Source: Chloroflexota bacterium
GTDB taxonomy: Bacteria > Chloroflexota > Anaerolineae > Caldilineales > Caldilineaceae
Direction of reading: 5' to 3'
Assembly (NCBI GenBank): GCA_003577005.1
Contig: QEUW01000047.1
Location: 1 to 35,605 of the forward strand
DNA: 35,605 nucleotides
This document shows positions 404 through 22,974 of this stretch, piece after piece (the stretch's first letter is position 1; each line of letters begins with the position of its first letter). A program made the translations under genes and the position numbers. The notes beneath the pieces are model-generated. The model saw only the letters and a program-made list of their open reading frames with translations. It did not search any database and had not been told where the DNA came from.

Positions 404-541
404 ATCGACAGACTCCAACAATCTGGATGATAGAGATAGATATAGTAATCTGTTGTATGAGCAGACAGAAAAAGCTGGGCCGAAAGACCAGGCGCTCGAA
501 TCAATTTGCGTTTGTGGTGGCTTCCGGCAAGCTACCCTTTC

Positions 542-672: not shown

Positions 673-716
673 CGAGGGATGAGCCGGCGACCAATCGATC
701 ACCGGCTCATCCCTCG
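673..716 (-). terminator. Strong bidirectional terminator after the protease cluster
   Basis: Perfect 15-bp arms (673-687 and 702-716, CGAGGGATGAGCCGG and its complement) enclose a 14-base loop. On the minus strand the stem is followed by CCTTTTTC; on the plus strand by TTTTGTTTTG. It lies about 80 bases downstream of the stop of the DUF6345-like gene, so it probably ends the transcript of the leftward protease cluster and insulates the leftmost gene. Confidence 0.85.
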
Positions 717-798: not shown

Positions 799-3066
799 TT
801 ACTCCTGTGACTGCCCACCGACGAGCGGCAGGAAGACCGACGGATTGACCGTGATGACCGTGTTCGCCGTCGCCGTCTGGGTGTTCGGGCTATCGGCATT
901 GGTCACGCGCAGGTGGATCACCAGCGTGCTGGTGCGCCCGTCGGGGTTGGCCGGCGCCACGAACGAGAATGTGCGCCCGCTGCCAATATGGTTGGCGTCG
1001 TCCACCGTGCCGAGGAACCAGTCGTAGAGATAGTCCCCATCGGCGCCGGTGCCGAGCGCAAAGTCAAAGTCGGCCGCGCCCAGCTCCTGCAGCGTCTGAG
1101 ATGCATCCGCCGCGGTCAGCGTCACCGTATCGCCGGCTTCCACGGTTGTGGTCGGCGCCACGGAGACGATCTCGGCATAGGGGCGCATGTAGATCTCGCT
1201 CGCCGGCACGTAGACATACTCCTCGATGGTGTCGCCGCTGTTGCGCTCTTTCATCTGTACCAGGAATTCGTAGACGGGCACCAGTTCGGCCTGGCTGACA
1301 CCCGGCGCCTCTTCCCAGTACGCGACAGTGGAGCTCAGGATCTGGCGATCTTCGACATCTAGCGGCAAGTCATTCAACGGCACCCGGTTGGGCAGCGCCT
1401 CATAGAGCGCACGCAGTTCAGCCTCGGGCCGGATATCGACCATGAGCAACTGGCCGGTGGCCGCATTGACCTCGGATTGAACTTCGCGCCACCCGCCTTG
1501 CATACCAATGGGTGTAGCCTGGAGGAGACCCGCCGCGTCGACCTCGTCGGCTGTCACTGGGACGTAGACCTTCTGCTTGGCGCCGGGGCCAACGACCGAG
1601 AACTCGACCTGCTCGACGCCGGCCGCGGTGACGATGCCGGCAGTGAGCCGCCGTGAGTAGATCACATTCCAGAGCAGAGCCGATTCATCGGTCTGTTCGA
1701 TGCCGTCGGCGCCTGCTGCTTCCGGTGTGATAGTCCCGGCGTCCAACTGGCTGGAGATAGTGTCGGAAATGACCTGGTTGAAGACCGAGCCGGGGTCGAT
1801 CAACCCATTCTGACGCAGGAAATTATCGGCAATGCGGCGGGCGTCATCCTGATGGACGAAGTTTGGTGAGGCGGCGGTGACGGCCAGAGCCGCCTCGGCC
1901 TGAGCCTCGGTCCACAGTTGCTGCTGGTCGGCATAGGTGTACATACCGCTGTTCTTGTCCAACTCCAGCGTGCGCGAGATGCGGCTGGTCACCAGGAAGG
2001 GGTCTGCCTGCGAGAGCGCTGTGCTGCGCACTGTGCTTGTGACCGGCACGCCGAGCAGGATCTCGCTCAGCCGGTTCAGATCCTGCTCGGCATCGTCCAG
2101 GCTATAGGGCGCCACGCGGAAGACGGGCATCTGATTTTGCAGCTTCTCCACTGGCACCTGAATGGCAGTCTCAGTGCCGCAGTAGTGCGTCTGATACCAC
2201 CAGTCAGTGTCGTACGAATCGGCACAGACGATACCGGACTGGGGGCGGTCGTTGAGACAGGCCAGCTCATTGATAATGGTGCGGGTGACACGGCCACGTT
2301 GCGCCACATCACATGCCTTGTACCACGCCTGGGGCACGGTGTAGTTGAGGGCCAGGTAGCGGCTAAAGTGATAGGCTTGCGTGCTGGAGGCCGAGTTGTA
2401 GGCGCTGGCGTTGGTCACAAAACCGAGGATCAGGTGCTGGCCGTTCATGCAGCGCGCCCAGCGGTTGAGGCTGGGGATCGACGCATTGGGGAAGATGTTC
2501 TGCGATGGAATATTGTCGAACGAAGCGCGCATGATCTGGCACGAGGTCAGCGCCAGCCATTCGTTGTCGCCATCACCCCAGGCGCCCAGACAATCGCTGG
2601 GTGAAAGTGTACTATCGTTGAAGTTGGGGTTGGCAAAGGTGAATCCGCTGTGAAAGCCATGACCGACGTAAAATTGCAGGTCGACTGCATCGATGTAATA
2701 GTTGTTGGTACCACCCAAACTGTGGAGTTTGAAATCCCGCTCCCACGCGGTGGCTTCGTTGAACGAATATCTCAACGTCCAGTTGGGGAGAGGCGCAAGC
2801 CAAAAGGCCATACCGGTGCGCTCGGCAGCGGTGGCCGCCGGCAGGTCACCGGCAGTGCCGTGGATGCCAAGCTCCCACGGGCCGCCGTCATCCGCATTCA
2901 CGGCCTCGCCGCTGGTGACACCGGCCGGGCTGACATCCACCGGCTCTTCGGCGCCCGCAGCCGCCGCGACCGTGGCCGGCGTCAACCAGAGTGCGGTCGA
3001 CAGGACCCAAGCCATTGTCGCCAGCAAGCCAGTACGGAAGCGGTGGCGTTCTGTTGCTGATAACAT
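799..3066 (-). CDS. Secreted DUF6345-like protein with caspase-type His/Cys pair and LPLV tail
   Basis: A protein of 755 residues. ATG 3066 is preceded by AAAGGAG at ideal spacing. It has an N-terminal signal peptide (hydrophobic about residues 12-37). Residues 85-260 resemble DUF6345: VDLQFYVGHG (His136) is followed 40 residues later by WLALTSCQIM (Cys176), then GQHLILGFVT and a tryptophan-rich stretch. A GHG...SC pair is the signature layout of clan CD (caspase-fold) cysteine peptidases, but proteolysis is my inference. The middle region (about 300-640) is not recognised. A PKD/Ig-like beta domain (about 645-745) follows, with EAGDTVTLTAADAS and DYLYDWFLGT. The protein ends VFLPLVGGQSQE, sharing the LPLV tail of its neighbours. 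It is the last gene of the leftward cluster, 179 bases after the C25 protease. Confidence 0.85.
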   Translation of the reverse strand: MLSATERHRFRTGLLATMAWVLSTALWLTPATVAAAAGAEEPVDVSPAGVTSGEAVNADDGGPWELGIHGTAGDLPAATAAERTGMAFWLAPLPNWTLRYSFNEATAWERDFKLHSLGGTNNYYIDAVDLQFYVGHGFHSGFTFANPNFNDSTLSPSDCLGAWGDGDNEWLALTSCQIMRASFDNIPSQNIFPNASIPSLNRWARCMNGQHLILGFVTNASAYNSASSTQAYHFSRYLALNYTVPQAWYKACDVAQRGRVTRTIINELACLNDRPQSGIVCADSYDTDWWYQTHYCGTETAIQVPVEKLQNQMPVFRVAPYSLDDAEQDLNRLSEILLGVPVTSTVRSTALSQADPFLVTSRISRTLELDKNSGMYTYADQQQLWTEAQAEAALAVTAASPNFVHQDDARRIADNFLRQNGLIDPGSVFNQVISDTISSQLDAGTITPEAAGADGIEQTDESALLWNVIYSRRLTAGIVTAAGVEQVEFSVVGPGAKQKVYVPVTADEVDAAGLLQATPIGMQGGWREVQSEVNAATGQLLMVDIRPEAELRALYEALPNRVPLNDLPLDVEDRQILSSTVAYWEEAPGVSQAELVPVYEFLVQMKERNSGDTIEEYVYVPASEIYMRPYAEIVSVAPTTTVEAGDTVTLTAADASQTLQELGAADFDFALGTGADGDYLYDWFLGTVDDANHIGSGRTFSFVAPANPDGRTSTLVIHLRVTNADSPNTQTATANTVITVNPSVFLPLVGGQSQE

Positions 3067-3245
3067 AGGTTACTCCTTTCAAAACCTAATACAAGAAAGA
3101 TAGACGTTCAAGGCAGTCAAACGGCGACCCCTTTGCACAATGGTCCGGCAGCAGCGCGCCAAGCGCCGGTCGATATGGCTGTGCCGGAAACTACGCAAGG
3201 CAAGGTCGTCGATCCGCCCAATGAACCAAATAGAATGTTGCCCGG

Positions 3246-6200
3246 TCAGCGGTGCACCAGCGGCAGCAAAATGCGTCTTCCGTTGGCTACGGGCTGTCCG
3301 GCTGCCAGGGGGATCGGTACAGTCAAGCGATAGTAACGGCCCTTGTTTTCGTTGACCGCCACGTTTCCGGCATTGTCCACGACCTGGACGAAAAATTTGG
3401 TGTTGACCGTGCCGGTGATCTCTCCCGTCCATTTCTGTGATGCGACATCAAAGCTCAAATCTTTGCTCAACCATTGCCCATCCTCATTGGTAAAAGCCAC
3501 CAGTACCCGATGAATCCCAGAACTATCGCTGGCTTCGACTTTGATCCGGCCGGCGCCCGTGGTCTCATCCAGCACCCCATCGATGGTTGAGATGTTGGCG
3601 GCGTTACGGTCGGGGCTGGTGGAATAGTAGGCGCCAAACGACATCTGGTCGTAGACGCGCAGTGTGCCCAGCCCGGCCGCTGCCGCAATTGGATCGCTGC
3701 TGCTCTGAAATTGCCCAAGGCTCATGACCAGGGTGTCGGCCGCGCCCGAGATCGCCTCGCTGCTGCGGATGGCAAAGGGCGCCGCGGGGTAAAAGTCCGC
3801 GGCGGCAAAGGCCGGTTCAGAGAGGTCGCTGACATATTCGTTCTGCGGCACAGCGATGACCGGGTCCACCCCTGCTGTGTCGCTGTAGACGCCGCCGAGA
3901 AAGACCGCACCCCGCAACGGTCCCACGGCCGGCGCCGAAATATCGGTGAAGTAGAGCGGCTGTAACGGGTCACCGGCGCTAAAGGCGACATTCCCATCCA
4001 GGTCAAAGGTTGTGCCGCGATCGCTGCTCTCGGAGCCAAAGGCGCCAAACGATCCGGGCAGACGGTATCCGGTCGTCCCCATGGCTGGCCCTCCTGCCAG
4101 CGACGATGGCGGTGTAAACTGCCGCTCGGCGCTGGGGAAGGGGTTCTCATCGGTCAAGGTGCCGCCGGACTGGATCGTGACCATGGGCAGGCCGTAGAGC
4201 GTCACCTGCATCAACACTTTGGCATCAAAGGCGTCAAAGCGCCGCGCCTGGCTGACATATTTGCGTTTTGCCTCGACGAGCGCCGGCCCGATGCTCGCTT
4301 TGGTGTCGCGCAACAGTTCGCGCGTATAGTTGCGCATCAACGCTTCGCTGTAGACCACGCCGCTGCTCCCCCAGCCAAAGCCCGTGTTGCCCACATAGTG
4401 AGCCTGTTTGCTCAGGTAAGCCTGGGGCAGATCGAGCGCACCCGGCTCGTTGAGCCCGCTATGGCAGCCCAGGCTGTAGACCAGCGCACCACGCAGATCG
4501 GTAACAGCAGCAGCGATCTGCGCCGCGGTCAGGTCGTCCTCGTCTGGCACACCTGCGGCCAGATGGGTCGAATGTCCGTTGACCGAATAGACATCAAAGC
4601 GAGGGGCCGCGCTCAGATATTTGCCGCGCAGTTCATCACCAAGCCAGTTGGCGCCGATAAGCGCGGCGTCGGTTGCGATGGTGTCGTTGCTAAAGAGCGT
4701 CTTGATCAACGTGGCGCCATCCTGCACAAAATCATAGCCTGTCACCAGCGCATTGGCGGCGGCGATCCCCTTGTTGCCCGCCAGGTAGCTGTCGATAAAG
4801 GCGCTGATCTCCGCCGGCGTCTCGACCAGGCGACCGACTGCGTAGTCGGCCACAAAGAGTTCATATTCGTTCCCTTGTTTGTCCTGCCACACCCCCGGCT
4901 CGCGGTCCACCAGATAATCGTCGGTGAGGATCATATTGGCGGCCAGCGCGGCGCGCACGGTCCCATCCTCGACGACTTCGGTGGCATACTTGGGTTCCAC
5001 CGATTCGGTTTCAGGACCCTTGGGCTCGATCCGGTCGAGCACACGGCGGAAGGGGATAACACGGTCATCCCCAGCGATAACCACGTATCTGGCCTGAGGG
5101 TTACTGTCCAGAAAACCCATGAGCCGGCTGCGGATAGCGGCCACCACTGCATTGGCGAGCTCCTGGTCGGCCAGTGTTGCGTTGTCTGTCGTCCAGGCGG
5201 CATAAGCGGCGGCGACAGCGGGGTCGGTTTCGACCTGGAACAACACGCCTTTCACGTCCGGGTCGTCGGCCAGTTCGACCAGTTTGTTCAACAACCCATC
5301 GGCCGGTGCGGAGCCATAGAGCGTCTCCAGCCGCTCCTCGGTGGCAAAGACCTGGAGCTCATAGTTGGCGTCATTGCCCAGGATATTGGGATTGAACTGG
5401 GTAATTCGCACGTAATGGGCGCCGGACGTGGTCGCCGTAAAGGAGAGCGCCGCCCCACGTCCGGTGCCGGCGTCGTCGTTTTGCAGCAACAGGGTTGCAC
5501 CGTCGCTATCGTATAGCTCCAACACAGTATCGGCGTTGGGGCCGAGCCCGGTGGTGACGATCTCGTACCGGCCGCCCACCACGGCGTCAAAGGTGATCCA
5601 ATCCTGGTCACCCAGGAGGGGGTTGAGCGCATCGGCGCAGAAATTGTGTGTCTGGCTGATACCGGTGGTGGGCATCAGCGGCGCATCGCCGGGGCCGTTG
5701 TTGCCGGTGTCCCCCTCAAAGGGGTCGGATGCACAGACTCCCTCTGCGATGACCAGATCATACTGGGTGTTGGGTCCGCTGGCAACGGGATTGGCATGAT
5801 GCACGCTGGCAAAGTAGACCCCGTCTTCGGGCGCTTCCCAGACGATGCGCGAGCCGCTCGTATAGCCGTAATCATCATTTTGGGCCAGTTGGGTCGTCCC
5901 ATCGGTGTTGTAAAGATGGAGCACCGTATCGGCGGCAAAGGCTAGATTGGTCGTCTGGAGCACATAGACGTTGCCCTTCTCGGCGCTAAATTTGACCCAA
6001 TCCTCATCGCTGGCCGGGCAGACATTGTGGGTGCGCCCGGCTTCGCCCACGGTGACGGCGCGCGCTTGAGCGCTGTTGTTATCTTCCTCTTCGGCGTCGG
6101 GCGTGCAGGCTGCGGCGGTCACAGTGAGGTCGTAGTGCGCATCGCCGCCAAACCGGTCGGGATTCTGATTCTTGACCCGCGCAAAGTAGACACTATCGGT

Positions 6201-7319
6201 GAGACTGCTCTGGGCAACCTGAGCCGCTGCCGGCGCCAGGCTATTGTTTGCCGGCACCTGGCTACAGGAGGCAAAGAGCGTGACGAGCGGGTTGACCCCT
6301 TGCGCCGTGTTGTCGGTGACGATAATAAAACTTTCGCCGGCTTTGACCGAAAACTTGATCCAATCCTCGTCGCCGGGCGCCTGGAAGAGGCGCGTCTGCC
6401 GCGTCCCATCGGTGGGGATATCGCGGGCGTCGGCGCAGCGGTTGTCCGGCTCGAAATCATCGCTGACGCCGGTGGCGCTGCTCAAGGTCAGGCTGTAGGC
6501 GCTCAGCGGCCCGATGACCCCGCCCTCATTGGAGAGGCGGGCGTAGACCATGCCGCTGCCCGATGCGCGCCACGTTGCTTGATTGGGACCGCTGGCCAGC
6601 GGCGTAAGTGCGGCGCAGGCGTTGTACAACTCCACTTGCGGCGCAGCGTGGGCGCCCTGGTTGCTCGTTGCCAGCGTGTAGGTGACGCCGGCAAAGGCCG
6701 TGAATTTGACCCAGTCGTCGTCGGGCAGGCTCTTGTTCTGGGCATGGCAGAAGCTGCGCGCCTGGCTGGCATTCTCGGATATGAGGCCGGCGGCGCTGCA
6801 CAGATTGTCTTCCTCGTAACCGTCGGGTTCGCACTCGACGCCGACGCAGACTTGGAGTTCGGTCAGGTTGTTTTCTTCGTTGGATTCTGTAACGGCATCA
6901 TCACGGTCGATCCAGGCGTAGATCACATGGTTACAGCCACCGAAAGAAAACGAGCCAAATTCAAAGTCAATTGGAGCATTCCCACCGGCGACCAGGCTGG
7001 CGATCCCAAAGGGACGGCCGAGCGTTGCTTGAGTTGGTGGCCGGTCCGGAGGATCGATATAAAGATAGACAGTTGACGGGCCAGCCGTGCTTGCGCCTAT
7101 ATTCTCGATCAACAGTTTGACGGTGACTTCTTCGCCAATTCCTGGTGCTGCCGGGCTGATGCTGATCTTGACCACCAGGTCCGGCCCGGCCGTGCTCTCG
7201 GCGCGACCGGTTTGCGGCATGGTAAAGGTCATGGAGCAGAGGAGCGCCATGGCCATCACCAAGAGCGCGCTGGTCACCGCCGCGCGCGACCGGTGTACGT
7301 TCGGATTTGAAGCTGTCAT
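3246..7319 (-). CDS. Secreted gingipain-like C25 peptidase with CARDB and four PPC domains
   Basis: A protein of 1357 residues starting at ATG 7319 (weak GGA upstream) with a signal peptide (about 15-40). In order: CARDB-type adhesion domain (about 45-156; DLVVKISISP, ESNEENN); four bacterial pre-peptidase PPC domains (about 160-280, 285-400, 402-525, 530-655), each opening with an acidic E-D-N/E-x-D cluster and carrying a DW[VI]KF or DWITF core; a peptidase family C25 domain (about 660-1065); and a beta-rich C-terminal region. The catalytic pair is visible as VNGHS (His916) and SLGCHSG (Cys952), the spacing expected of gingipains. It ends RRILLPLVHR. C25 enzymes are extracellular cysteine peptidases, and PPC domains usually aid secretion or substrate binding. 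The gingipain type IX sorting domain is not seen. Co-oriented with the upstream caspase-like genes. Confidence 0.92.
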   Translation of the reverse strand: MTASNPNVHRSRAAVTSALLVMAMALLCSMTFTMPQTGRAESTAGPDLVVKISISPAAPGIGEEVTVKLLIENIGASTAGPSTVYLYIDPPDRPPTQATLGRPFGIASLVAGGNAPIDFEFGSFSFGGCNHVIYAWIDRDDAVTESNEENNLTELQVCVGVECEPDGYEEDNLCSAAGLISENASQARSFCHAQNKSLPDDDWVKFTAFAGVTYTLATSNQGAHAAPQVELYNACAALTPLASGPNQATWRASGSGMVYARLSNEGGVIGPLSAYSLTLSSATGVSDDFEPDNRCADARDIPTDGTRQTRLFQAPGDEDWIKFSVKAGESFIIVTDNTAQGVNPLVTLFASCSQVPANNSLAPAAAQVAQSSLTDSVYFARVKNQNPDRFGGDAHYDLTVTAAACTPDAEEEDNNSAQARAVTVGEAGRTHNVCPASDEDWVKFSAEKGNVYVLQTTNLAFAADTVLHLYNTDGTTQLAQNDDYGYTSGSRIVWEAPEDGVYFASVHHANPVASGPNTQYDLVIAEGVCASDPFEGDTGNNGPGDAPLMPTTGISQTHNFCADALNPLLGDQDWITFDAVVGGRYEIVTTGLGPNADTVLELYDSDGATLLLQNDDAGTGRGAALSFTATTSGAHYVRITQFNPNILGNDANYELQVFATEERLETLYGSAPADGLLNKLVELADDPDVKGVLFQVETDPAVAAAYAAWTTDNATLADQELANAVVAAIRSRLMGFLDSNPQARYVVIAGDDRVIPFRRVLDRIEPKGPETESVEPKYATEVVEDGTVRAALAANMILTDDYLVDREPGVWQDKQGNEYELFVADYAVGRLVETPAEISAFIDSYLAGNKGIAAANALVTGYDFVQDGATLIKTLFSNDTIATDAALIGANWLGDELRGKYLSAAPRFDVYSVNGHSTHLAAGVPDEDDLTAAQIAAAVTDLRGALVYSLGCHSGLNEPGALDLPQAYLSKQAHYVGNTGFGWGSSGVVYSEALMRNYTRELLRDTKASIGPALVEAKRKYVSQARRFDAFDAKVLMQVTLYGLPMVTIQSGGTLTDENPFPSAERQFTPPSSLAGGPAMGTTGYRLPGSFGAFGSESSDRGTTFDLDGNVAFSAGDPLQPLYFTDISAPAVGPLRGAVFLGGVYSDTAGVDPVIAVPQNEYVSDLSEPAFAAADFYPAAPFAIRSSEAISGAADTLVMSLGQFQSSSDPIAAAAGLGTLRVYDQMSFGAYYSTSPDRNAANISTIDGVLDETTGAGRIKVEASDSSGIHRVLVAFTNEDGQWLSKDLSFDVASQKWTGEITGTVNTKFFVQVVDNAGNVAVNENKGRYYRLTVPIPLAAGQPVANGRRILLPLVHR

Positions 7320-7459
7320 AATCTATCCAAGATTGCGCTGTCGTTGGAGGTGGCTCAATGGTAGCGTTGCGCTCAGTTGCTGGCTGTGCACCCGGTCATA
7401 GGCTGGCTGTGTCCGGGCGCACAGATACGTCGGGCCACACTTCTACCCCTGCTGCGGTT

Positions 7460-7478
7460 GTCACGCTACCAGCGTGAC
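7460..7478 (-). other. Stem-loop between the C13-like and C25 genes
   Basis: GTCACGCT, a 3-base loop and AGCGTGAC form a perfect 8-bp stem 30 bases after the C13-like stop codon. There is no U-tract, so it may stabilise an mRNA end or attenuate transcription rather than terminate it fully. The surrounding 189-bp gap shows no clear promoter. Confidence 0.5.
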
Positions 7479-7507
7479 CTACCTGTGCGACAACCTGGTA
7501 CGCTTCG

Positions 7508-10500
7508 TTACCGGGACACAAGCGGCAAGTAGAGAAGCTCTGCCTGCCCCTCGCGGCGTGGTGTTGCGTTGATCCCCAGCCGGTCCTGGGCAAAAAAGAC
7601 GATACGATAGTCACCATCCTCAGTAAAGCCATTGATGTAGTTAAAAGTGAATCGCCCCGGTGTGGCCGGGTCAGGGTCCAAACGTACGGTGGGCGCATTC
7701 AGATTGAGCGTCACCCCGTCCGGCTCCTGGAACGAGGGTGGAAAAACCGTAGCCCAGACCAGGCTGATCGCCTCTGCCCCTTCCTCAACCGTTGCGGCCA
7801 GCAGACCATTCGCACCCTCTTTGGTCACCTGAACGTCACGGATAGCGGGCCGGATCGAGCTAAAGAAGCTGGTGACGTGGCGGTTTTGCGCCACGGCGCC
7901 ATCATTGGCATCCGACAACCCGTCGCCATTATCATCCATCCATGGCGTTTGCTGAACCCCTGTGGCTGCCACCGCTGCGCTAGCCTGCTCGAAGCAGACC
8001 CTCAGGTTGTTGCTGTCGGCCACACAGGAAAAGAAAGCGTCAGAGAAAAACGCACCTTGGGCCGAAGCGTAGGCGTTCTTCTCGCGGTCGGTGGACGTGA
8101 TGACTACGCGGCCTGTCTTGCCAAGGCCGTTCAAGGGACCCTGAGCCCGGTCTAAGAAACTGCCAGACTGGCACGCTTCGATGACAACGTTGACTTCATT
8201 CAAACCGCTCGTGCTTTCGAGGTTGTCGAGCCAACTGTTGAGGTCTTCCGGAGTCACCACCTGGCCGGCGCCGCAGCCGCTGACACAGAACTTATCGGCA
8301 AAGCCGTGGTCGATCATATAAATAAAGAGCGGCTTGCCGGGGCCGACGCGCCCGTTCTCTTTGGCCCAGCCGGTGAGCGCCTGCTCTACCGCTGCCGGGC
8401 TGGCCTGGGCATCCACGTCATTGCTGCCGTTGCCGTCGGCGTCCTGGCCGGCGGGGGCGATGTAGAAGATGTTGTCATCGCTAAAGCCGGCGGTTTTGAA
8501 GATGCGATAGGCGCGGTTGGCCGCGTTGTAGATGTTGGTTTGCAAGCCAAAGGTTTCGTTGTGGCCGGCGACGATCAACACAGCACCCGTTCTGCCGCTC
8601 AGCCGGTGGATGCGTTGGGTCTTCTGGCCGGTGTTGCCGGCGCTGTCGGTGACGCTCACCAGGATGTCGTTGTCGCCGATGTTGAGGTTTAGGTTCTCGA
8701 CGCGGAAGGTGCTGCTGCCGCCGCTCAGACTAAAGTCGCTACCTTCGGACTGGTTGGTGAGGTTTTTGATATGCACCTGGCTCAGATTGCCGCCGGTATC
8801 CTGGGCAAGACCAGTGAAGGTGACCTGTGCCGCCGTCGTGGTGAAGACGCCAGCCGCGGTGGGCTGTTGCAGCGTCACTACGGGCTGGGTCGGGTCGGCC
8901 ACGGCGGCGGCGCGGCACTGGACCGGCGCCGAAGTATTACTTTCATTGCCGGAAAAGTCTATCGCCACCACCTGTAAGTCGTAGAGTTCGCCCGCCGCCA
9001 GGTTGTCGATCTCGACATAGGTCTGGTCGGCGCCCTCCACCTCGCGGTTGCCACTGCTGGTGGCGCTCTGGTTGCGGAAGTTGACCCGGTAGCGGACTAC
9101 ATCGGTTTCTGGGTTCTTTTTCCACTGGATACCCAGCGTCGTCGCATCGATGGCGACGCAGCGCAGGTTGATGGGGGCGGAGGGCGGTGTCGTATCCTCC
9201 GTCACCTTGAGATGATAATGGGTATCTGAGCCAAAAAAGCTGGGGTCAAACTGTTGCAACTGGAGGAAATAATCGCCGGCTTTGGTCGAATTCCAGGTGA
9301 GCCGCACCGTCGAACCAAACGCCTTGCCCTCGAACGCGCTAGGGGGTGCGGCACACACATCGTGCAGGTAAAGAATAGCGTCGGCCTTGGCGCCCACGTT
9401 GGTGACTTCGATCACGTAGGTCTTGTTGAGTTGCGCCGTAAATTTGACCCAGTCGGTATCCCCCTCCGCATGGAAGGTGTGTATCTGCATCTCGCTGCCA
9501 TCCACACGGATGGGTTTGGCCTGGTTACAGTTGTCGTCCACCTCGTAGGTGTCGCCATCGGGCGGGGGCGCGGTAGTGGGCGAGGGGTCCGGGGTGAGGG
9601 AGGGGGTGGGCGTAATTGGTGCGGGTGTTGCCCGAAGTTCCAGCACGTAATCCGCCGCATGTTGTGTATGGCGATAGGCCGTGCGTGCTCCGCCCTCATT
9701 TTGCAGCGGGTCGATAATGCCATTGTCGTTGAGGTCGGTGCCGTTGTAGAGCCGGTCGGCGAAGCTGAGCAGTTGATTGGCTGGCGTCTGCGCCGCGGCG
9801 GCCGTACTCGCATCGAGGACTTCCTGGGCGTGGGTAATCAACGATTCTACCCATAGGCTGTTGACCGCTGGGCTACCGATGTTGCCCAGTGTGGTCTGCA
9901 CCTCGGCCACGCGCGTGCGGATGTTCTCGGTGGCGTCAGCGCTGTCTGCGGCCAGTTGGAGCGTCTGCGACAGGTTCTGGCTGTAACGCAGCAAACCATA
10001 GCCATCGCCTGGGCTTTCGGGGCCGCCAACCCCATCGTAGTCTTTATAGCGCGGGTCATCCGCACTAAAGAGGGTATTGAGCACATGTTCGACGTGGATC
10101 TTCGCCCCCGCCAGGTTGTTGCCGTCTGCTGCGGCCTTAGCAAATCCGGCATGGGTGTGGATGATCTGCGCCTGGCTCAGCAAGCCCACTGCGTAACCGA
10201 CCTTGTTGGGCGTATCTTCAGCGCGGTAGAGCGCCGTACGCAGATGGGCCAACGCAGCGGGCGGAAGGGCGCCATCGGCGTAGAGCATGCCCACACTGAG
10301 ATAGAGCTGGTGGTAGCCGGCAATCAGATTCGTCCCGGCACGTGTGAGGGAGCCTTCCAATGTTCCCCCGGTACCTGCCACTCCCCCCAACCAGAGCCGG
10401 TTGTTCTGATTATCGACCAGATAGGCCCAATATTGTTCGCCCGCCGCCGCTGGCGGCAACCCCGCCAGCGTAAAGTACAGTTGGTCGCTCTTGCGGTTGC

Positions 10501-11599
10501 TGTTGGCATCCCGGTGCTGGACGCTGCCGCTGACCCCGCTGCTGCCGGGTGGCAGATAGTCGGCTGCTCGTTGGGTGTATTGATGGGCGGTGATGGCGCC
10601 GCCTTCGTTAACGACGGGTTCGATCCCATCATCATCCTGATCGACGCCGTTGTAGATGCGGTTGGCCACGGCCAGTAGTTGGTTGGCCGGTGTCTGGGCC
10701 TCTGCCGCCGTGCTGGCCGCCAGCAGATCGGTGGCGGCGGTGATCAAGATGGGTGACCACAACCCGTCTTCGTTGCTTGAGCCGATATTGCCCAGCGTGG
10801 TCTGTACCTCGGCCACGCGCGTGCGAATGCTCTCGGTGGCGTCAGCGCTATCCGCCGCCAGTTGGAGGGTCTGCGAGAGGCTCTGGCTGTAACGCAAGAG
10901 ACCATAGCCATCGCCGGGGTTTTCGATACCGCCAACCCCATCATAGTCTTTATAGCGCGGGTCAGCCGCGCCAAAGAAGGTATTGAGCACATGCTCTGTA
11001 TGAAGCCTGGCATCGGCCAGGTTGCCGCCATCGGCTGCGGCTTTGGCAAATCCGGCATGTTGGTGTAGAATCGCCGCCTGTTGCACCAGCCCTACGCTAT
11101 ACCCGGCCTGGCCGGGCGTGTCTCCGGCCTGATGCACCGCCGTGCGGATATGGGCCAGCGCCGTTGTGGGCAAGGTCGCACTAAAGATGACACGCTCCTG
11201 GATAATGCGGACCTGGCTGTATAAGCCAATGAGATTACGACCTGCAAAGTCGTGACCGGCATTGACAGCGCCACCGGCCACCGGCAGCGGGCCAAAAGGC
11301 AGACCCACGTCATCGCTGTTGAGCAGGTAGCCAACGAGGCTGCGACCGGCGGGTGGTGCGCTCACATCCGACATCTCGACCACCACCCGGTCGCTCGACA
11401 GGGTGGGCGAACTCGTGCCGCGATCCTGCACCAGGACACGGCCGGCAAATGCGCCCGCTGCGCCGGGCGCACCCGGCTCGGCAGTTGCGACATCCAGCCA
11501 CAAGCCGGCCGTTGCTGCACTTACCACGATCAGAGCGACAAGCACGACCAACGCCGTGTTGTGCGAACGCTGCTCTTTCCGTACCCCTACTTCCACCAT
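7508..11599 (-). CDS. Secreted caspase-fold (C13-like) peptidase with duplicated RskA-like/helical sensor modules
   Basis: A protein of 1363 residues from ATG 11599 (GAGAG just upstream); N-terminal signal or anchor helix (about 17-38). Two copies of a module of about 302 residues fill 40-650. Each has a beta part resembling the RskA anti-sigma extracellular domain (LAGLPPAAAGEQYWAYLVD in copy 2), a helical part with HxEHVLNT and YKDYDGVGG..NPGDG, and an EF-hand-like loop (DQDDDGIEP, DLNDNGIID) before NEGG. Then a Pro/Thr linker (about 655-685), PPC (685-810), Fn3 (812-905), an Ig-like domain (905-1000) and the peptidase (1000-1240) with MIDHG (His1098) and IEACQSGSF (Cys1143), 45 apart as in its paralogue. 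A beta domain ends in LLYLPLVSR. The His/Cys context matches family C13 (legumain) and other caspase-fold enzymes. It lies 16 bases downstream of its paralogue. Confidence 0.9.
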   Translation of the reverse strand: MVEVGVRKEQRSHNTALVVLVALIVVSAATAGLWLDVATAEPGAPGAAGAFAGRVLVQDRGTSSPTLSSDRVVVEMSDVSAPPAGRSLVGYLLNSDDVGLPFGPLPVAGGAVNAGHDFAGRNLIGLYSQVRIIQERVIFSATLPTTALAHIRTAVHQAGDTPGQAGYSVGLVQQAAILHQHAGFAKAAADGGNLADARLHTEHVLNTFFGAADPRYKDYDGVGGIENPGDGYGLLRYSQSLSQTLQLAADSADATESIRTRVAEVQTTLGNIGSSNEDGLWSPILITAATDLLAASTAAEAQTPANQLLAVANRIYNGVDQDDDGIEPVVNEGGAITAHQYTQRAADYLPPGSSGVSGSVQHRDANSNRKSDQLYFTLAGLPPAAAGEQYWAYLVDNQNNRLWLGGVAGTGGTLEGSLTRAGTNLIAGYHQLYLSVGMLYADGALPPAALAHLRTALYRAEDTPNKVGYAVGLLSQAQIIHTHAGFAKAAADGNNLAGAKIHVEHVLNTLFSADDPRYKDYDGVGGPESPGDGYGLLRYSQNLSQTLQLAADSADATENIRTRVAEVQTTLGNIGSPAVNSLWVESLITHAQEVLDASTAAAAQTPANQLLSFADRLYNGTDLNDNGIIDPLQNEGGARTAYRHTQHAADYVLELRATPAPITPTPSLTPDPSPTTAPPPDGDTYEVDDNCNQAKPIRVDGSEMQIHTFHAEGDTDWVKFTAQLNKTYVIEVTNVGAKADAILYLHDVCAAPPSAFEGKAFGSTVRLTWNSTKAGDYFLQLQQFDPSFFGSDTHYHLKVTEDTTPPSAPINLRCVAIDATTLGIQWKKNPETDVVRYRVNFRNQSATSSGNREVEGADQTYVEIDNLAAGELYDLQVVAIDFSGNESNTSAPVQCRAAAVADPTQPVVTLQQPTAAGVFTTTAAQVTFTGLAQDTGGNLSQVHIKNLTNQSEGSDFSLSGGSSTFRVENLNLNIGDNDILVSVTDSAGNTGQKTQRIHRLSGRTGAVLIVAGHNETFGLQTNIYNAANRAYRIFKTAGFSDDNIFYIAPAGQDADGNGSNDVDAQASPAAVEQALTGWAKENGRVGPGKPLFIYMIDHGFADKFCVSGCGAGQVVTPEDLNSWLDNLESTSGLNEVNVVIEACQSGSFLDRAQGPLNGLGKTGRVVITSTDREKNAYASAQGAFFSDAFFSCVADSNNLRVCFEQASAAVAATGVQQTPWMDDNGDGLSDANDGAVAQNRHVTSFFSSIRPAIRDVQVTKEGANGLLAATVEEGAEAISLVWATVFPPSFQEPDGVTLNLNAPTVRLDPDPATPGRFTFNYINGFTEDGDYRIVFFAQDRLGINATPRREGQAELLYLPLVSR
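9885..10993 (-). repeat. Internal tandem duplication inside the larger C13-like gene
   Basis: Segments 9885-10087 and 10791-10993 align without gaps at an offset of exactly 906 bp (302 codons) and agree at roughly nine of ten bases by eye. The similarity fades on both sides but extends over the whole module in protein. The in-frame period and high nucleotide identity suggest a fairly recent duplication or ongoing gene conversion. Confidence 0.88.
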
Positions 11600-11615
11600 G
11601 ATTGCTCTCTATCGT

Positions 11616-13898
11616 TTAATTGTTGCGGATGACGGGCAAGAACAAAATATCCTGTTGCCCTTCACGCCGCGGTACAGCATGGATGCCCAGACGATCCTGC
11701 GCATAGTAAACGATGCGGTAGTCGCCCTCTTCCAAGAAGCCGTTCGTATAGTTAAACCGGTAGTGCCCCGGCTCATTGGGCGCCGGCTCCAGCCGGACGG
11801 TTGGCACATTCAAGTTGAGTGTGACATTGTCTGGCTCGACAAAGCTTGGGGGGAAGACCACAGCCCACACCAGGTCGATCTCTTCTGCCCCGGCGACTAC
11901 GTGCGCTGAGAGAGTCCCGTTGACGCCCTCCCGGCTGAGCGCGGCGCTGGCGATCTGCGGGCGGCTCGAACTAAAGAAGCGCGTGATGACACGCCCCTGC
12001 GCCACATCGCCGTCGCCGTCGTTGAAGACGCCGTCGCCGTTATCATCCATCCATGGCGTTTGGTTGACGCCCGTCGCCTCCACCGCCGAGACCGCTTGGT
12101 CGAAACAGAGCTTTAGGTTATTGCTGTCGGCCACACATGAGAAGAAGGCGTCGGAGAAGTAGGCGCCCTGCGCTGAGGCATAGGCGTTGTTCTCGCGCCC
12201 CGTTGAGGTGATGATGACGCGGCCAACCTTGCCCAGACTATTGGCAACGTCTCCGTTGAAGCGGTCGATAAAACTGCCCGACTGGCACGCCTCGATCACT
12301 ACTGTCACCTGGTCGAGACCGGTGGCATCCTCCAGTGTTCGCAGCCAGCTGTCCAGATCAGCCGGCGCGATAGCTCCCGTATCGTTACATCCGGCAGCGC
12401 AGAACTTTTCGACAAAGCCGTGGTCGATCAAATAAATAAAGAATGGCTTCTCCGGCCCCACCCGGCTTTGGGCCCAAACGGTCACCGCCTCCTGGACTGC
12501 CGCCGGGGAAGAGGCGCCATCGGTGTCAGGAATACCGTCGCCGTCGGCATCTTGAGCTACGGGGGCCAGATAGTGGATGTTGTCATCGCCAAAACCGGCG
12601 CTGCGGAAGATGCGGTAGGCGCGATTGGCGGCATTGTAGATATTGCTCTGCAAGCCAAAGGTCTCGTTGTGGCCGGCCACGATCAGCACGGCGCCCGCCA
12701 CCTCTCCCAATCGTCGCACGGTAACCGAGCGCTGGCCGGCGTTGCCAGCGTCGTCAAACACATTCACCTGGACGTTGTTGTCACCCACGGCCAGCCCTAG
12801 TTCGGTGACACGGAATGAGGCGCTGCTGCCGGAAAGACTGTAGTCCCACTTTTCGGCATTCTTGGTCAGGTTGCGCACCTGGGCGCGTAACAGGTTGCCG
12901 CCCTCATCGGTCGCCACGCCCGTAAAGGTGAGCGAGTAGGCTGTGGTTGTGTAGATGGAGGATCCATCCGGTTGCGTTAGCGCGAGCGTAGGCTGTGAAA
13001 GATCGACAGGCGCCTGAGCAGTACAGGGCGCCTGGCCGCTTGGTTCGCTCTCGTTGCCCGAAAAGTCCACGGCCAGCACGCGCAGGTTGTAGGTCTGGTT
13101 GGGCGTCAAACCGCCGAGTTCGTAATAGGTGGTCGACGCACCCGCCACATCTTCGCTGCCCGCGGGCACACCGGCAAACGTGAGCCGGTAGCCGCGCACA
13201 TCGCGCTCGGGACTCTTCTTCCACTGCAAACCCAGCGACGATGGGCTAACGGGAACACAGCGCAAATTCTGTGGCGGCGAAGGTGGGATGGTATCGAGCA
13301 CGACGGAGATGGTGTAGTCGGTGCCGGCGCCGGCCAACGTCGGGTCAAACTGCTGGATTTCGAGATAATAATCGCCGTTACGGGTTGAGTCCCACTCCAG
13401 CCGTACAGTGGAGCCAAAGGCGTTTGTTCCCTGCGCCTGGAGCGCGTCGGTGCAACTATCGTACAGGTTGACAATGGCGTCAGCGTCGGCGCCGACATTG
13501 CGGATTTCGATGATATAACTCTTGTTCACGACCGCCGCAAACCGGAGCCAGTCGCGGTCGCCCACGTCGTGGAAGGTATGGTTTTGCTGGACGCCGGTCG
13601 TTTCGATCAACCTGGCGGCGCTGCAGGTATCATCTTCCTCATAGGCGTCGCCGGCGCTGCTGGCATCAAAGAGAAAGCCAGCGTCCAGGGCGAAGTTGGC
13701 GCTGGACGCACTGGAGATACTGAATTGACCGAGTGTATCATCGATGAGAAAACCAGGCGACTGGCGCGTGCCACCGCCGCTGTTGATCTGCGTTTGGCCC
13801 AGGTCAAAGTTGGGTGAATCCTGGCTGAAGCCGCTTCGGGTCAGCAAAATTGCGGTCAGCAAAGCCACAGCAAAGGCGACAAACAGGCGTGGTTGCAC
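11616..13898 (-). CDS. Secreted caspase-fold (C13-like) peptidase, shorter paralogue
   Basis: The frame is open from ATG 14006, but that start would overlap the upstream gene by 77 bases. GTG 13898 (GAG 5 and GGAG 12 bases upstream) gives a good signal peptide (QPRLFVAFAVALL) and 760 residues; TTG 13916 is an alternative. After the signal comes a region with the DDTLGQFSISSASSANFAL pattern, then PPC (about 83-210), Fn3 (212-300), an Ig-like domain (305-395), a C13-like peptidase (400-640) with LIDHG (His493) and IEACQSGSF (Cys538), and a C-terminal beta domain ending ILFLPVIRNN. It matches the downstream neighbour along its whole length from PPC to tail but lacks that protein's two sensor modules, so the two are tandem paralogues. 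It is 16 bases from its paralogue and 31 from the upstream gene, so cotranscription is likely. Confidence 0.9.
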   Translation of the reverse strand: MQPRLFVAFAVALLTAILLTRSGFSQDSPNFDLGQTQINSGGGTRQSPGFLIDDTLGQFSISSASSANFALDAGFLFDASSAGDAYEEDDTCSAARLIETTGVQQNHTFHDVGDRDWLRFAAVVNKSYIIEIRNVGADADAIVNLYDSCTDALQAQGTNAFGSTVRLEWDSTRNGDYYLEIQQFDPTLAGAGTDYTISVVLDTIPPSPPQNLRCVPVSPSSLGLQWKKSPERDVRGYRLTFAGVPAGSEDVAGASTTYYELGGLTPNQTYNLRVLAVDFSGNESEPSGQAPCTAQAPVDLSQPTLALTQPDGSSIYTTTAYSLTFTGVATDEGGNLLRAQVRNLTKNAEKWDYSLSGSSASFRVTELGLAVGDNNVQVNVFDDAGNAGQRSVTVRRLGEVAGAVLIVAGHNETFGLQSNIYNAANRAYRIFRSAGFGDDNIHYLAPVAQDADGDGIPDTDGASSPAAVQEAVTVWAQSRVGPEKPFFIYLIDHGFVEKFCAAGCNDTGAIAPADLDSWLRTLEDATGLDQVTVVIEACQSGSFIDRFNGDVANSLGKVGRVIITSTGRENNAYASAQGAYFSDAFFSCVADSNNLKLCFDQAVSAVEATGVNQTPWMDDNGDGVFNDGDGDVAQGRVITRFFSSSRPQIASAALSREGVNGTLSAHVVAGAEEIDLVWAVVFPPSFVEPDNVTLNLNVPTVRLEPAPNEPGHYRFNYTNGFLEEGDYRIVYYAQDRLGIHAVPRREGQQDILFLPVIRNN

Positions 13899-13929
13899 GA
13901 CGACTCTAGTCTCCAATCGATCCGTCCAA

Positions 13930-15318
13930 TTATTCGGCCTGGGTGGACTGTTCTGGTTGTCCCATCTCTGTGGGCGGTGTTGTAAGTTGCAGACGTTGAG
14001 CTTCATACCCCAGCCGTTTTGCTGCTATACGATAAGAGAATTCTGCATTGGGGTCCCCTTCGCGTAAACGCACCTCAAAGCCAGTTGGTGTGCGGTTGGC
14101 GACGTAAAGTTCGGCATTGCCGTATGCCTGTACAAAGACATGGTACGGCTGGCTCAGGTTGACCGTCTGAGCAAAAATCGGTTCGACCGGGATGAGCGCT
14201 ACTCCCTGGTTGAGGCGCCCGAACCCATAATCGGTAAACCAAACCTCAGCAGCCTCTTCAGCATAGAGCAACCTCTCTCCGTCGCTGGTGGAAACCACGG
14301 CGTTCTTGCTCCCACTTGCCATAAAATTTCCCCTCACGAAAAGGTTGCCTGCTTCGGAGAGCGAGAAGATTGGCGAGCCGCTGGTTTTGAAGACATCAAA
14401 CGCCGAGGCAATGGATGGATTGTCAGTGGGCTCCATGACGATCTCGAGATCGGCGGGCACGGAAAAGGTCGTGATTGTCGAGCTGCCTGCATAACCGCGC
14501 GCCTCGATCGTGCCGACGACGTCGAGCTTTGCACTGGGCGTCGTCGTTCCGATACCCACATCGCCGGCGTTATTCACCTGTAGGGCATTTTGGGGATTTC
14601 CATCTGGGGCATCCAGAGACGAGTGGCGATGCCCGGCGGTGGCAAAGGCGTCTGCATTCTGTCCATCCAGCAAATCCGCATCGAGACCGGAGCCGGCGCC
14701 ATCGGCGGCCAACACAGCCGGTACAATCTCGCCGTCGCGAGCAATAGCCGGGTCGATGCGCGCTTCGGCGATGGTGCCAGAGGTAACGGCGCTGCCGTCG
14801 TGGGGGTGGCTGGCCGGGGCGAACGCAGCGGCATCCTGGCCATCGAGCGTATCGGCATCTGCGGCGTAGAGCGCATAGGCGACAAAGGCGATCCGCTGGC
14901 GGGGCTCCGCTTCCGGGTCGGACCCGACCGAGACACCAAGATAGAGTTCGCGGCCATCGAAATGGCTGAGGTCGAGCGCAGTTGTATCGCCCAGCAGGGT
15001 GCTAAAGAGCCCTCTGCTTATGACGATGCTTTTTGTCTCTGTCCAGAGAGGTGAGCCACCGGTCGCTACGTTGTAGATGCGAAACGATGCAGGATACGAA
15101 CCATCTGGCTTGGGTTGGCCCGTAGTGGGGTCGAGCAGGCGCCCTTGGTAGTGCAGCACAGGCGCAACCGGCGCTGAGGCCATCACTGCGCTCGCACCTG
15201 TCTCTGCCGGCGCATCTAACCAGCGCGCTGCAGCGTTTGGCCCGGCCAGCACTACGGCCAGCGCAACTGCTGCACCGGAGATCAAGCCAATGCTCTGTTT
15301 GACGAGCACACGGATCAT
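13930..15318 (-). CDS. Secreted fibre-like protein with GIGTTTP and HxH motifs
   Basis: A protein of 462 residues from ATG 15318, with GGGAG ten bases upstream. Signal peptide about 1-31. Residues 50-150 form a beta domain (LHYQGRLLDP, SFRIYNVATGG) seen at the start of many exported proteins. Two fibre-like repeats follow, ADTLDGQDAAAF..SHPHDG and ADLLDGQNADAF..GHRHSS; the His-x-His pairs resemble the iron-binding turns of trimeric phage tail fibres. Then NNAGDVGIGTTTPSAKLDV, a phrase common in tail-fibre and endosialidase-type proteins, and a C-terminal domain (KNAVVSTSDGERLLYAEE, FEVRLREGDPNAEFSYRI) found in other bacterial surface proteins. It is probably a trimeric surface stalk or adhesin. 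First gene of the leftward cluster; it lacks the LPLV tail. No promoter could be placed with confidence. Confidence 0.8.
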   Translation of the reverse strand: MIRVLVKQSIGLISGAAVALAVVLAGPNAAARWLDAPAETGASAVMASAPVAPVLHYQGRLLDPTTGQPKPDGSYPASFRIYNVATGGSPLWTETKSIVISRGLFSTLLGDTTALDLSHFDGRELYLGVSVGSDPEAEPRQRIAFVAYALYAADADTLDGQDAAAFAPASHPHDGSAVTSGTIAEARIDPAIARDGEIVPAVLAADGAGSGLDADLLDGQNADAFATAGHRHSSLDAPDGNPQNALQVNNAGDVGIGTTTPSAKLDVVGTIEARGYAGSSTITTFSVPADLEIVMEPTDNPSIASAFDVFKTSGSPIFSLSEAGNLFVRGNFMASGSKNAVVSTSDGERLLYAEEAAEVWFTDYGFGRLNQGVALIPVEPIFAQTVNLSQPYHVFVQAYGNAELYVANRTPTGFEVRLREGDPNAEFSYRIAAKRLGYEAQRLQLTTPPTEMGQPEQSTQAE

Positions 15319-15435: not shown

Positions 15436-15463
15436 CTGACACTGTTGTAAAGTTGAGTATACC
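15436..15463 (+). promoter_or_regulatory. Predicted promoter of the PBP gene
   Basis: CTGACA (15436-15441), a 16-bp spacer and TATACC (15458-15463) point rightward. Transcription would begin near 15470, giving a leader of about 225 bases before ATG 15695. This speaks against translation from ATG 15476, which has AGGAGG directly abutting it with no spacing. Confidence 0.5.
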
Positions 15464-15642
15464 CTTGAAAGGAGGATGCGTCAATCCACATTTGAGCGAT
15501 TTTGCCGAACGGTCTTGATCGGTGGGGGCGCCGTAGGGGATCATGGTGTGCCAGTGACTTCATCATCAGGCAGGCGCTCCTCTTTTTCCAGTCACACAAA
15601 TGGGGGACAACCGCACGTAGAATGCCCAAGGAGCTTTGTTTG

Positions 15643-15675
15643 GCGCGGCCGATTTGCCGGAACAGCCGGCCGCGC
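15643..15675 (+). other. GC-rich stem-loop in the PBP leader
   Basis: GCGCGGCCG (15643-15651) pairs with CGGCCGCGC (15667-15675) around a 15-base loop, ending 19 bases before the proposed start codon. It could slow translation initiation. No riboswitch class is recognised. Confidence 0.4.
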
Positions 15676-15694
15676 GCCATCGTTGAGTAGATGT

Positions 15695-18412
15695 ATGGCG
15701 CGCTTCTTTCACGAGCTCATTCACAAGATTGTACGGCTGGCGTGGCCGCTACTACTTTCAGCCTTTGTGCTGGCGGTTGCGCTATACTTTTGGTTGCTCG
15801 CTGACCTACCGCCGCTTGACACTATCGAACAGCGGCTGGTGCGCCCCACCACACAGATCCTTGACCGCAATGGCCGCCTCTTGTACGAGGTCATCGACCC
15901 AGAGGCAGGAAAACAGATCAACCTCGACTTGAGCGCCCTTCCTCCCGCCTGCGTCCAGGCTACCCTCGCCACCGAAGACAGCCGTTTCTACCATCACCCA
16001 GGTGTGGACCCTATCGCCATCGCACGGGCTACCTGGCAGAACGTTCGTGCCGGCGGCGAGATCGTGAGCGGAGCCAGCACCCTTACGCAGCAACTGGCGC
16101 GCACCCTCCTGCTCAGCACACGTGAACGGTACGAACAAAGCGTTCGGCGCAAGCTGCGCGAGGCCTGGCTGGCGTGGCGTCTCGAACAACGCTATACGAA
16201 AGATGAATTGCTGGCGCTCTATCTCAACCAGACCTATTACGGCAATTTCGCCTTTGGCATTGAGGCGGCGGCGCAAATCTTTTTCGCCAAACCAGCCGCC
16301 CACCTCAGCCGCGCTCAGTGTGCGCTCCTTGCTGGTCTGGTTCAATATCCCACCGGTTATAACCCGTTGCACGACCCGGACGCAGCCAAGCTGCGCCAGT
16401 TGACCGTGTTGCGGTTGATGCACGAAGCCGGTTTTCTCACGGCGGCGGAACGCGATGAAATTGCCGCTGAACCGTTGCGCTACCGGTCGCGACTCTTCAA
16501 TATCCAGGCGCCCCATTTTGTCATCTACGTCCAGGACTTGCTGGCCCGCCAACTGGGACCCGATGGGTTGCGCCAGGGCGGTTTGCGTGTAGTCACAACT
16601 CTGGATGCCGACTTGCAACGCCAGGCTGAAGAGGCGATCCGCTACCGGTTGGACTTGCTCAACTGCCGCCGGCCAGGGATCTGCGACAAGAACACCGACC
16701 CCAACCGCCGGGTAGACAATGCCGCCGCTGTGGTGCTCGATAGCCGCACCGGCGAGATCCTGGCGATGGTGGGCAGCCCGGACTATTTCGATGCGCAGAG
16801 CCAGGGCAATGTCAATGCCGCGCTGGCCCTGCGCCAGCCGGGCAGCGCCATCAAACCGCTGACCTACGCCGCCGCACTTGACGCAGGTTGGAGCGCTGAG
16901 TCCGGGGTGCCGCCGTTGACGGCGGCCAGTATCCTTGCTGACCTGCCGACCACTTTTTATGTGCTCGACCAGCCGGATAATCCACAGCCTCTCCTGGGTG
17001 TGGATGAAAGCCGGCCAGTCGCTACCTCACAAGGCGCTGGTGGCAAGGTTCCTTACACCCCGGTCAACTATGACCGTACCTTCCACGGGCCGGTCAGCGT
17101 GCGTACCGCCCTTGCCAATAGCTACAACATCCCTGCCGTCAAGGTGCTCGACCGCATTGGCGTCCCGATCCTTCAGCGACTGGCCGCCAAAGCTGGTATC
17201 AGCACATTTGCCAGCGACTTCGGACTCGCCCTCACGTTGGGCGGCGGCGAAGTCAAATTGTTGGAACTCACCGCCGCTTACGGCATCTTCTCGGATGGAA
17301 GACGGCTCGACCCCCAGGCAATTTTGGCGATAGACGGCGAACCACCGTCCATCGTCCAGCGGTCATCGACCTCCGTTATCTCCCCTACAACCGCCTATCT
17401 CATCACCGACATCCTGTCGGACAAGGTGGCTCGCATTCCCGCTTTCGGGGAAGGTTCGCCGTTGGATTTGCCCTTCCCGGCCGCAGTCAAGACCGGCACG
17501 ACCACCGACTGGCGCGACAACTGGACCATTGGCTATACGACCGAGCGCATTGTGGGTGTCTGGGTGGGCAATGCCGACAACACACCGATGCTCGATGTCA
17601 GCGGGGTCGACGGTGCTGGCCCAATCTGGCACGATCTCATGTTGGCTGCGCACCCCACGCCCCCGCCACCCTTTGTTCCGCCTGCCGACATTGTGGAAAT
17701 ATCGGTCTGCGCGCCCAGCGGCATGTTACCAACCCCTGTCTGCCCACGCACACGGATCGAACGCTTTGTGCGGGGTGCCGAACCGACCGAACCCGATAAC
17801 CAGTTTCAGCGCCTAAAGATCGACCGCACTACCGGCCACCCCCCCACCCCCGGTACAGCACCCGAGCAGATCATTGAGCGCACCTTCTGGCTCCTTCCAC
17901 CCGAATACCATGATTGGATGGCAGCGCAGGGGATACCGAATGCGGAATGTGGAACACAGCGTGCGGAATGTATTGGCGTACACTCTGGCTCTGTTGAGCA
18001 GCGAGAAGAGATCGAGCAGGCCGATTCCGCATTTCGCATTCCGGGGCGCCCTCTGGGCCCCGCACTTGTACTGGCTATGCCTACCTCCAATACGGGATAT
18101 CAGATTCATCCGGGGCTGCCGCGTGCGAATCAGCGGGTCGAAGTGGCAGGATATGTCGCTGCGGGACAGCCCTGGGCAGAATTGCGGTTGGTAAAGGATG
18201 GCGTCATTCTCGCCGAGGGCGCCGGCGTTGCGCGTCTCAACACCTGGTGGACGCTGGAGGAGGGAGAGCACCATTTCTGGCTCGAAGGGCGGCGATCAGA
18301 GGGGGCGGCACTAATTACATCACCTAGGGCGCTGGTTATGGTAGAACCGTTTCAGTCACCAGCGGCGATGGACGGTGAAGCCCTCACCGGCGCACCCCCG
18401 GTGGCAGAATAA
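15695..18412 (+). CDS. pbpC: Class A penicillin-binding protein, PBP1C type
   Basis: A bifunctional peptidoglycan glycosyltransferase/transpeptidase acting outside the membrane. The frame is open from 15476, but ATG 15695 places the single membrane helix (about 12-35) correctly and gives 905 residues. GT51 motifs: [12 protein letters not shown] (catalytic Glu94), GASTLTQQ (126-133), [17 protein letters not shown] and AQCALLAGL. Transpeptidase motifs: SAIK (Ser384), SYN (476-478) and KTGT (599-602). The C-terminal region (about 785-890; [18 protein letters not shown]) resembles the BiPBP_C domain that distinguishes PBP1C. Residues about 748-782 ([11 protein letters not shown]...) are encoded by a palindromic repeat inserted in frame between the transpeptidase and this tail domain. 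It is transcribed away from the surface protein cluster and converges on the TolB-like gene. Confidence 0.93.
17938..18041 (+). repeat. Palindromic repeat inserted in frame in pbpC
   Basis: The 17-base arm GAATGCGGAATGTGGAA (17938-17954) matches the complement of 18025-18041 at 15 of 17 positions. Another GTGCGGAATG copy lies at 17961-17970. GAATGCGG-type palindromes look like dispersed genomic repeats. Here one is translated as a low-complexity insert without breaking the reading frame. Confidence 0.65.
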
Positions 18413-18436
18413 CGTTGCAACACAACAGAGTCGACA

Positions 18437-18535
18437 GCGGAACACAGAAAGCACAGAGAAGACACGGAGAGCCCAGAGGTTGTTCTCATTTGCCTCTGTG
18501 TCCTCTGTGTCTTCTCTGTGCTTTCTGTGTTCCGC
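18437..18535. repeat. Large inverted repeat between convergent genes, possible bidirectional terminator
   Basis: Arms of 43 bp (18437-18479 and 18493-18535) enclose a 13-base loop. The outer 29 bp are perfect and the inner 14 contain four mismatches. The arms consist of CACAGA/GAGAA-like short motifs, a type of dispersed repeat seen in many environmental bacterial genomes. It sits 24 bases after the pbpC stop and 6 bases before the end of the convergent TolB-like gene, so as RNA it would fold on both strands. No long U-tract follows. Confidence 0.8.
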
Positions 18536-18541
18536 TTTACA

Positions 18542-22796: not shown

Positions 22797-22840
22797 CGTC
22801 CCCTTCCTTCTCCAACGCAGTCTGGATCGTGATCGGGCCA

Positions 22841-22917: not shown

Positions 22918-22974
22918 GAGGTCGCTCAGCTCACTCCATCCGCCGTCTGCCGCCTGTCTCGCTTGTGCAGTCTA

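Follow-up and report, generated by a model that had tools for sequence, protein, structure and literature searches.

A cluster of five genes was identified in a stretch of 35,605 nucleotides from a Chloroflexota bacterium of the Caldilineaceae (contig QEUW01000047.1; the whole stretch analysed is called the window here). The genes run leftward from 15318 to 799, with one for a fibre-like protein followed by two for C13 peptidases, one for a C25 peptidase and one for a DUF6345 protein; the nearest named homologues of the window proteins belong to the Caldilineaceae. The cluster is predicted to be one transcription unit for the production of surface-displayed caspase-fold cysteine peptidases together with the fibre-like protein, and the peptidases are proposed to be clients of a pathway acting on a shared C-terminal tail rather than the machinery of this pathway. 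A probability of about 0.5 is assigned to this reading.

The predicted peptidases and their cluster

The genes and the His/Cys dyads, the latter read from the sequence, are as follows:

13930..15318, minus strand: fibre-like protein, first gene of the cluster, 462 amino acids (reading frame and sequence)
11616..14006, minus strand: C13b peptidase P0004, longest frame 796 amino acids, with PPC-like, fn3, Ig-like and C13 domains (PF01650)
12420-12422 and 12285-12287, minus strand: dyad of C13b, His529 and Cys574 in longest-frame numbering
7508..11599, minus strand: C13a peptidase P0003, 1363 amino acids (PF01650)
8306-8308 and 8171-8173, minus strand: dyad of C13a, His1098 and Cys1143
3246..7319, minus strand: gingipain-like C25 peptidase P0002, 1357 amino acids (model of the homologue P0136)
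4572-4574 and 4464-4466, minus strand: dyad of P0002, His916 and Cys952
799..3066, minus strand: DUF6345 protein P0001, 755 amino acids, caspase-fold domain at about residues 59-278 (PF19872, model and structural neighbours)
2659-2661 and 2539-2541, minus strand: dyad of P0001, His136 and Cys176

A sequence-only reading of the window had proposed four adjacent leftward genes with His/Cys pairs of the caspase type, headed by a fibre-like protein and accompanied by CARDB, PPC, Fn3 and Ig domains. Every claimed pair was found, the fibre-like protein is indeed located at the head of the cluster, and the accessory domains were recovered, with CARDB and PPC preceding the catalytic part of P0002 (Pfam) and PPC-like, fn3 and Ig-like domains present in P0004. 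The proposed fold was borne out by caspase-type structure models of DUF6345 and C25 with a conserved dyad, while the assignment of C13 is based on the Pfam match and the dyad.

P0001 matches DUF6345 (PF19872) with an E-value of 9.3e-32 and is a member of this family, which has been described only as being of unknown function. The model of its domain shows a caspase fold, backed by structural neighbours, in which the strands 130-135 and 170-174 are followed by His136 and Cys176, respectively. Among 110 sequences, the His is present in 109 and the Cys in 108, and the dyad is kept in 32/32 relatives scored across the phylum. On the basis of the modelled fold and the dyad in these 32 relatives, DUF6345 is predicted to be probably a peptidase family of clan CD. 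A PDB sequence-profile search with DUF6345 gave one row at chance level. Two P0001 homologues, P0281 and P0293, deviate at the dyad, one with a Ser in place of the catalytic Cys and the other additionally with an Asn in place of the His; from their sequences, they are possibly inactive family members.

For the C25 protein, the gingipain catalytic fold with a His/Cys dyad was found in the model of the homologue P0136. P0002 itself gave no match to PF01364, the Pfam C25 family, at E<=1 and did not reach the gathering score, and therefore was named gingipain-like and not a plain C25 member; PF01364 is present in many P0002 homologues according to a precomputed domain list. In structural alignments, the C25 model shares about 12-14% identity with the gingipains RgpB and Kgp. 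Gingipains carry the C-terminal domain of the type IX secretion system (T9SS), and P0002 differs from RgpB and Kgp by CARDB and PPC domains in front and by a tail of the YLP type. In the PDB sequence-profile search for C25, accessory domains only were matched.

P0003 and P0004 match PF01650 with 33.9 and 31.9 bits, respectively, both over the cut-off of 22.8. Like legumain, they contain the DHG block with the His and the EACxSG block with the Cys, a dyad which is present in 121/121 C13 domain sequences (P0004 and 120 homologues) and in P0003 too. Unlike legumain, they have fn3 and Ig-like domains ahead of the catalytic part, and a tail. In legumain, Arg-His forms part of the S1 pocket. The Tyr-Arg-His segment of legumain aligns to Leu-Gln-Ser/Thr of the C13 proteins, in a region where the alignment score is poor; the position aligned to Arg-His is Gln453 in 115/121 sequences, with a score of -1.1 bits there. 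The PDB sequence-profile search for C13 returned only accessory domains among the matches listed (60 of 195). Since a 98%-identical homologue of C13b has 760 amino acids, the probable start of C13b is Val37 (13898). In P0004, residues 42-115 (window 13662-13883) match PamT, a CPR-type pilus protein, weakly, with 23.2 bits at a cut-off of 240. The long N-terminal region of P0003 has no Pfam match; by eye, one module of about 300 amino acids is visible in two tandem copies at residues roughly 50-660 of this protein (window 7508-11599).

The fibre-like protein matches NF053851 (mosaic adhesive trimer) weakly, with 27 bits versus a cut-off of 60, and does not carry the YLP-type tail. A homologue is located directly upstream of C13 in the loci L002, L007, L028 and L043, and no fibre gene was called in L037 of genome G004.

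The intergenic gaps in gene order from the fibre gene are 31, 16, 188 and 179 bases, with Val37 as the start of C13b. Two candidate signals flank the cluster:

673..716, minus strand: terminator-like hairpin with a stem of 20 pairs, some 80 bases beyond the end of the last gene (folding scan)
15456..15484, minus strand: weak promoter-like site preceding the fibre gene, 10/12 matches (motif scan)

The stretch 655-798 is more stable than 200/200 shuffles (z -5.88). The remaining leftward terminator-like sites within 799-15318 are stems of 5-6 pairs that lie in coding sequence; in total, 13 sites were counted, and 13.0 are expected by chance. Because a terminator closes the last gene and the internal sites are at chance level, cotranscription is favoured, and the cluster is likely to be one transcription unit. 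Beyond the terminator, another leftward gene begins (2-421, minus strand); it has a Big_5 domain and is cut by the window end. On the other side, at 15476-25758, genes with envelope-type domains were identified, coding for a PBP1C-like transglycosylase/transpeptidase, a WD40/SH3 protein, an HlyD-type protein, a LysM protein and an M23 peptidase.

Conservation of the gene neighbourhood

An alignment profile of DUF6345 was scanned against genome contigs, and nine related loci were obtained from genomes titled Caldilineaceae, Litorilinea, unplaced bacterium and, in one case, Anaerolineales. The gene order C13 (one to three copies), C25, DUF6345 (one to three copies) is present in 6/9 loci, and it is kept where the DUF6345 proteins are only 50-78% identical to P0001. 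In L005, the DUF6345 genes come first, at the contig end.

For 46 genomes of the order of G004, the window-type C25 was scored as present at E<=1e-130 and C13 at a best E<=1e-70. DUF6345 was identified in 11 genomes, the window-type C25 in 12, C13 in 11 and all three in eight. C25 and DUF6345 adjoin in seven genomes (G001-G004, G006, G007 and G331), and C13 and C25 are located on one contig in ten. For G005 and G334, DUF6345 lies on a separate contig, near contig ends. With genomes taken as independent, the Fisher test gave 1.7e-7 for C25 with C13, 9.4e-6 for DUF6345 with C25 and 8.3e-5 for DUF6345 with C13. Thus, the neighbourhood, the conservation of which the earlier reading had named as a check, is conserved within the order (6/9 loci, 8/46 genomes); its parts also occur alone.

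These data also bear on a tentative and rather unlikely alternative, in which independent secreted proteases lie together through duplication and through inheritance of the neighbourhood, and their genes do not act together. Such a history would fit the solitary DUF6345 genes, the C13 or C25 genes at loci apart from the cluster, and L028, the second locus of G006, which contains DUF6345, a short frame, a fibre gene and C13 without C25. It would also fit the C13 tree, in which the two L046 copies group together (0.967). An ancient two-copy split of C13 in all genomes is not supported, since the copies from the window and from L001/L043 pair up (0.999, 0.985) but those of L046 do not. At about 10-66 kb of contig G002:C410 (L029-L032), large C13-like proteins and others are encoded in an array, most of them with the same tail, and this points the same way; one frame of this array reaches 3966 amino acids, partly masked as X, and its C13 proteins form a second family, separate from the cluster. 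Against independent proteases stand the order kept in the divergent loci and the different accessory domains of the families, which argue that the cluster genes are not simple tandem copies.

At L006 and at G004:C85:99664-101795, one C25 gene and one C13 gene each are split over two frames, owing to a frameshift or an assembly error.

The C-terminal tail and its candidate readers

The C terminus of each of the four peptidases is a variant of approximately [YF]LPx[VI]x[RK], despite their different last domains, and a loose form of this pattern was found in 332/359 homologues:

11619..11645, minus strand: tail LFLPVIRNN of P0004 (sequence; no NCBIfam match)
7511..7534, minus strand: tail LYLPLVSR of P0003, YLP-box (NF050076, NF053834)
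3249..3272, minus strand: tail ILLPLVHR of P0002 (sequence; no NCBIfam match)
802..837, minus strand: tail VFLPLVGGQSQE of P0001 (sequence; no NCBIfam match)

The tail is not presented as a new discovery, since NCBIfam already contains two models of a YLP-box putative sorting motif, NF050076 and NF053834. The last 30 residues of P0003 reach both cut-offs, with 15.0 bits (cut-off 15) and 14 bits (cut-off 10), respectively, while the tails of P0001, P0002 and P0004 fit by eye only. Among ten tailed proteins of genome G001, a match to the YLP-box models was shown for one. Of ten 30-residue C termini, two reach the cut-offs, one of them being that of the window's C13a. In the literature, nothing relevant to such a C-terminal signal was present among the matches listed.

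Tails were counted per genome with the DNA pattern [FY]LPx[VI]xR-stop, whose last codon also admits Trp, versus the reversed pattern. In the order, 18/46 genomes are tail-rich (binomial p<0.01), with none among the 21 genomes G310-G330. The latter are without the tail and without strong C25 or DUF6345 matches, and 20 of them (not G330) are without the sortase PF04203; apparently, surface-protein sorting differs wholesale between members of one order.

All 20 chosen tail sites in G001 terminate frames of 107-1504 amino acids. By a crude test, a strong N-terminal hydrophobic stretch is present in 12/15 of these frames with a complete start, and a later membrane segment in 0/20. Tested likewise in stretches from G001 and G004, 7/7 tailed frames, cluster homologues included, look secreted versus 15/88 others. 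Pfam identified adhesin-type repeats or propellers in six of the ten tailed G001 proteins, a match below the cut-off in one and nothing in three. The tail probably holds the peptidases at the cell surface.

The cluster itself might be the sorting machinery, with C25 acting like PorU and C13 like the glycosylphosphatidylinositol transamidase to cleave the tail and attach proteins to the cell surface. Both families do occur in the cluster, but the tail does not require them: among the order's 18 tail-rich genomes, seven are without the window C25 type, eight without C13 and nine without DUF6345. P0002 also gave no match to the PorU model NF033707. Mainly because so many tail-rich genomes are without the cluster families, this explanation is regarded as improbable.

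A separate C25 protein related to PorU, the T9SS sortase, was identified in 42/301 genomes of a phylum sample at E<=1e-20 to NF033707, the cut-off of which is reached by 0/301. Counting the R and K forms of the tail, 18 genomes of this sample are tail-rich (p<0.01, uncorrected). The PorU-like protein is present in 17 of these versus 25/283 others (Fisher 1.7e-15), and in 11/12 at the stricter p<1.7e-4; the one genome of the 18 without it, G110, matches PF01364 strongly. In the order, strong PF01364 matches were found in 17/18 tail-rich genomes, and 7/24 genomes with such a match are not tail-rich. Of 20 proteins with strong PF01364 matches, all seven scanned match NF033707 below its cut-off. 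Since 17/20 themselves end by eye in a tail with a hydrophobic residue or Ala plus Pro, they may be clients of the tail pathway too.

A PorU-like enzyme is nevertheless not claimed as the tail sorter. The class sortase PF04203 is present in 26/46 genomes of the order, including 18/18 tail-rich ones, and the tail-rich G339 has only a weak C25 match (E 3e-4). In the phylum sample, the tail is hardly or not at all in excess in 12/42 PorU-like genomes, and the reversed pattern used as a control by itself already separates the PorU-like genomes with an area under the curve of 0.729, versus 0.891 for the tail excess; therefore, genome size, composition and kinship confound these statistics. The combined proposal of the YLP-box as the signal of a PorU-like sortase outside T9SS, the cassette as its dedicated surface clients and DUF6345 as an active clan CD family is unlikely as a whole.

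Proposed role of the cluster

In the favoured reading, the proteins would leave the cell by the Sec route, as the hydrophobic N termini of their sequences suggest. The tail would then be read by a sorting enzyme that keeps the peptidases at the cell surface, where active sites of differing specificities would cut extracellular or surface proteins. Protein scavenging or surface-protein maturation is the likeliest use, and a protease cascade among the cluster enzymes is possible. The coordinated extracellular system suggested earlier fits the cluster, and the shared tail adds a link that had not been named; a cascade, an attack function or any other particular role stays conjectural.

Several observations weigh against the favoured reading. 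The loci L008 and L009 contain DUF6345 without C13 or C25. When the order's 18 tail-rich genomes are taken alone, the associations are weaker, with Fisher values of 0.013 (C25 and C13), 0.0023 (DUF6345 and C25) and 0.015 (DUF6345 and C13), genomes again taken as independent. DUF6345 is present in 19/301 genomes of the phylum sample, and in stretches of 6-20 kb around it, the window-type C13 and C25 are absent from 18/18 other genomes (excluding G004); in one of these stretches, L026, the hidden Markov model found no DUF6345. Because of these 18 stretches, the cassette is seen as a feature of the order, as far as sampled. Furthermore, the tails of P0001, P0002 and P0004 match neither NF050076 nor NF053834, at full length or with the last 30 residues; HMMER filters lose most short matches, and these tails still fit the loose pattern. 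Finally, the promoter-like site is at chance level, with eight such sites in the scan versus 4.4 +/- 2.1 expected.

Action of the peptidases on other cells or viruses, in attack, defence or cell death, would be in line with their caspase fold, yet it is considered very doubtful. Known defence caspases are intracellular, while the cluster proteins look secreted. A defence function was rejected, as P0001-P0005 gave no PADLOC match at E<=1e-3.

In estuary sediment, C25 was reported to account for more than 40% of the predicted exported peptidase genes (PMC6752024), and in genomes from the Black Sea, it was one of the extracellular peptidase families often encountered (PMC8359207). Prokaryotic caspase homologues have been surveyed, with mention of metacaspases of Chloroflexi and, in the parts available, of neither C13 nor C25 (PMC3501461). 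In the accessible portions of these three papers, the cluster is not described.

In one order of the Chloroflexota, secreted caspase-fold peptidases of three families are kept together as a stable gene cassette. For DUF6345, a domain of unknown function, a fold and a probable active site can be named, along with gene partners that are conserved. For the catalogued YLP-box, a testable question is obtained, namely whether its reader is a PorU-like enzyme or a class sortase.

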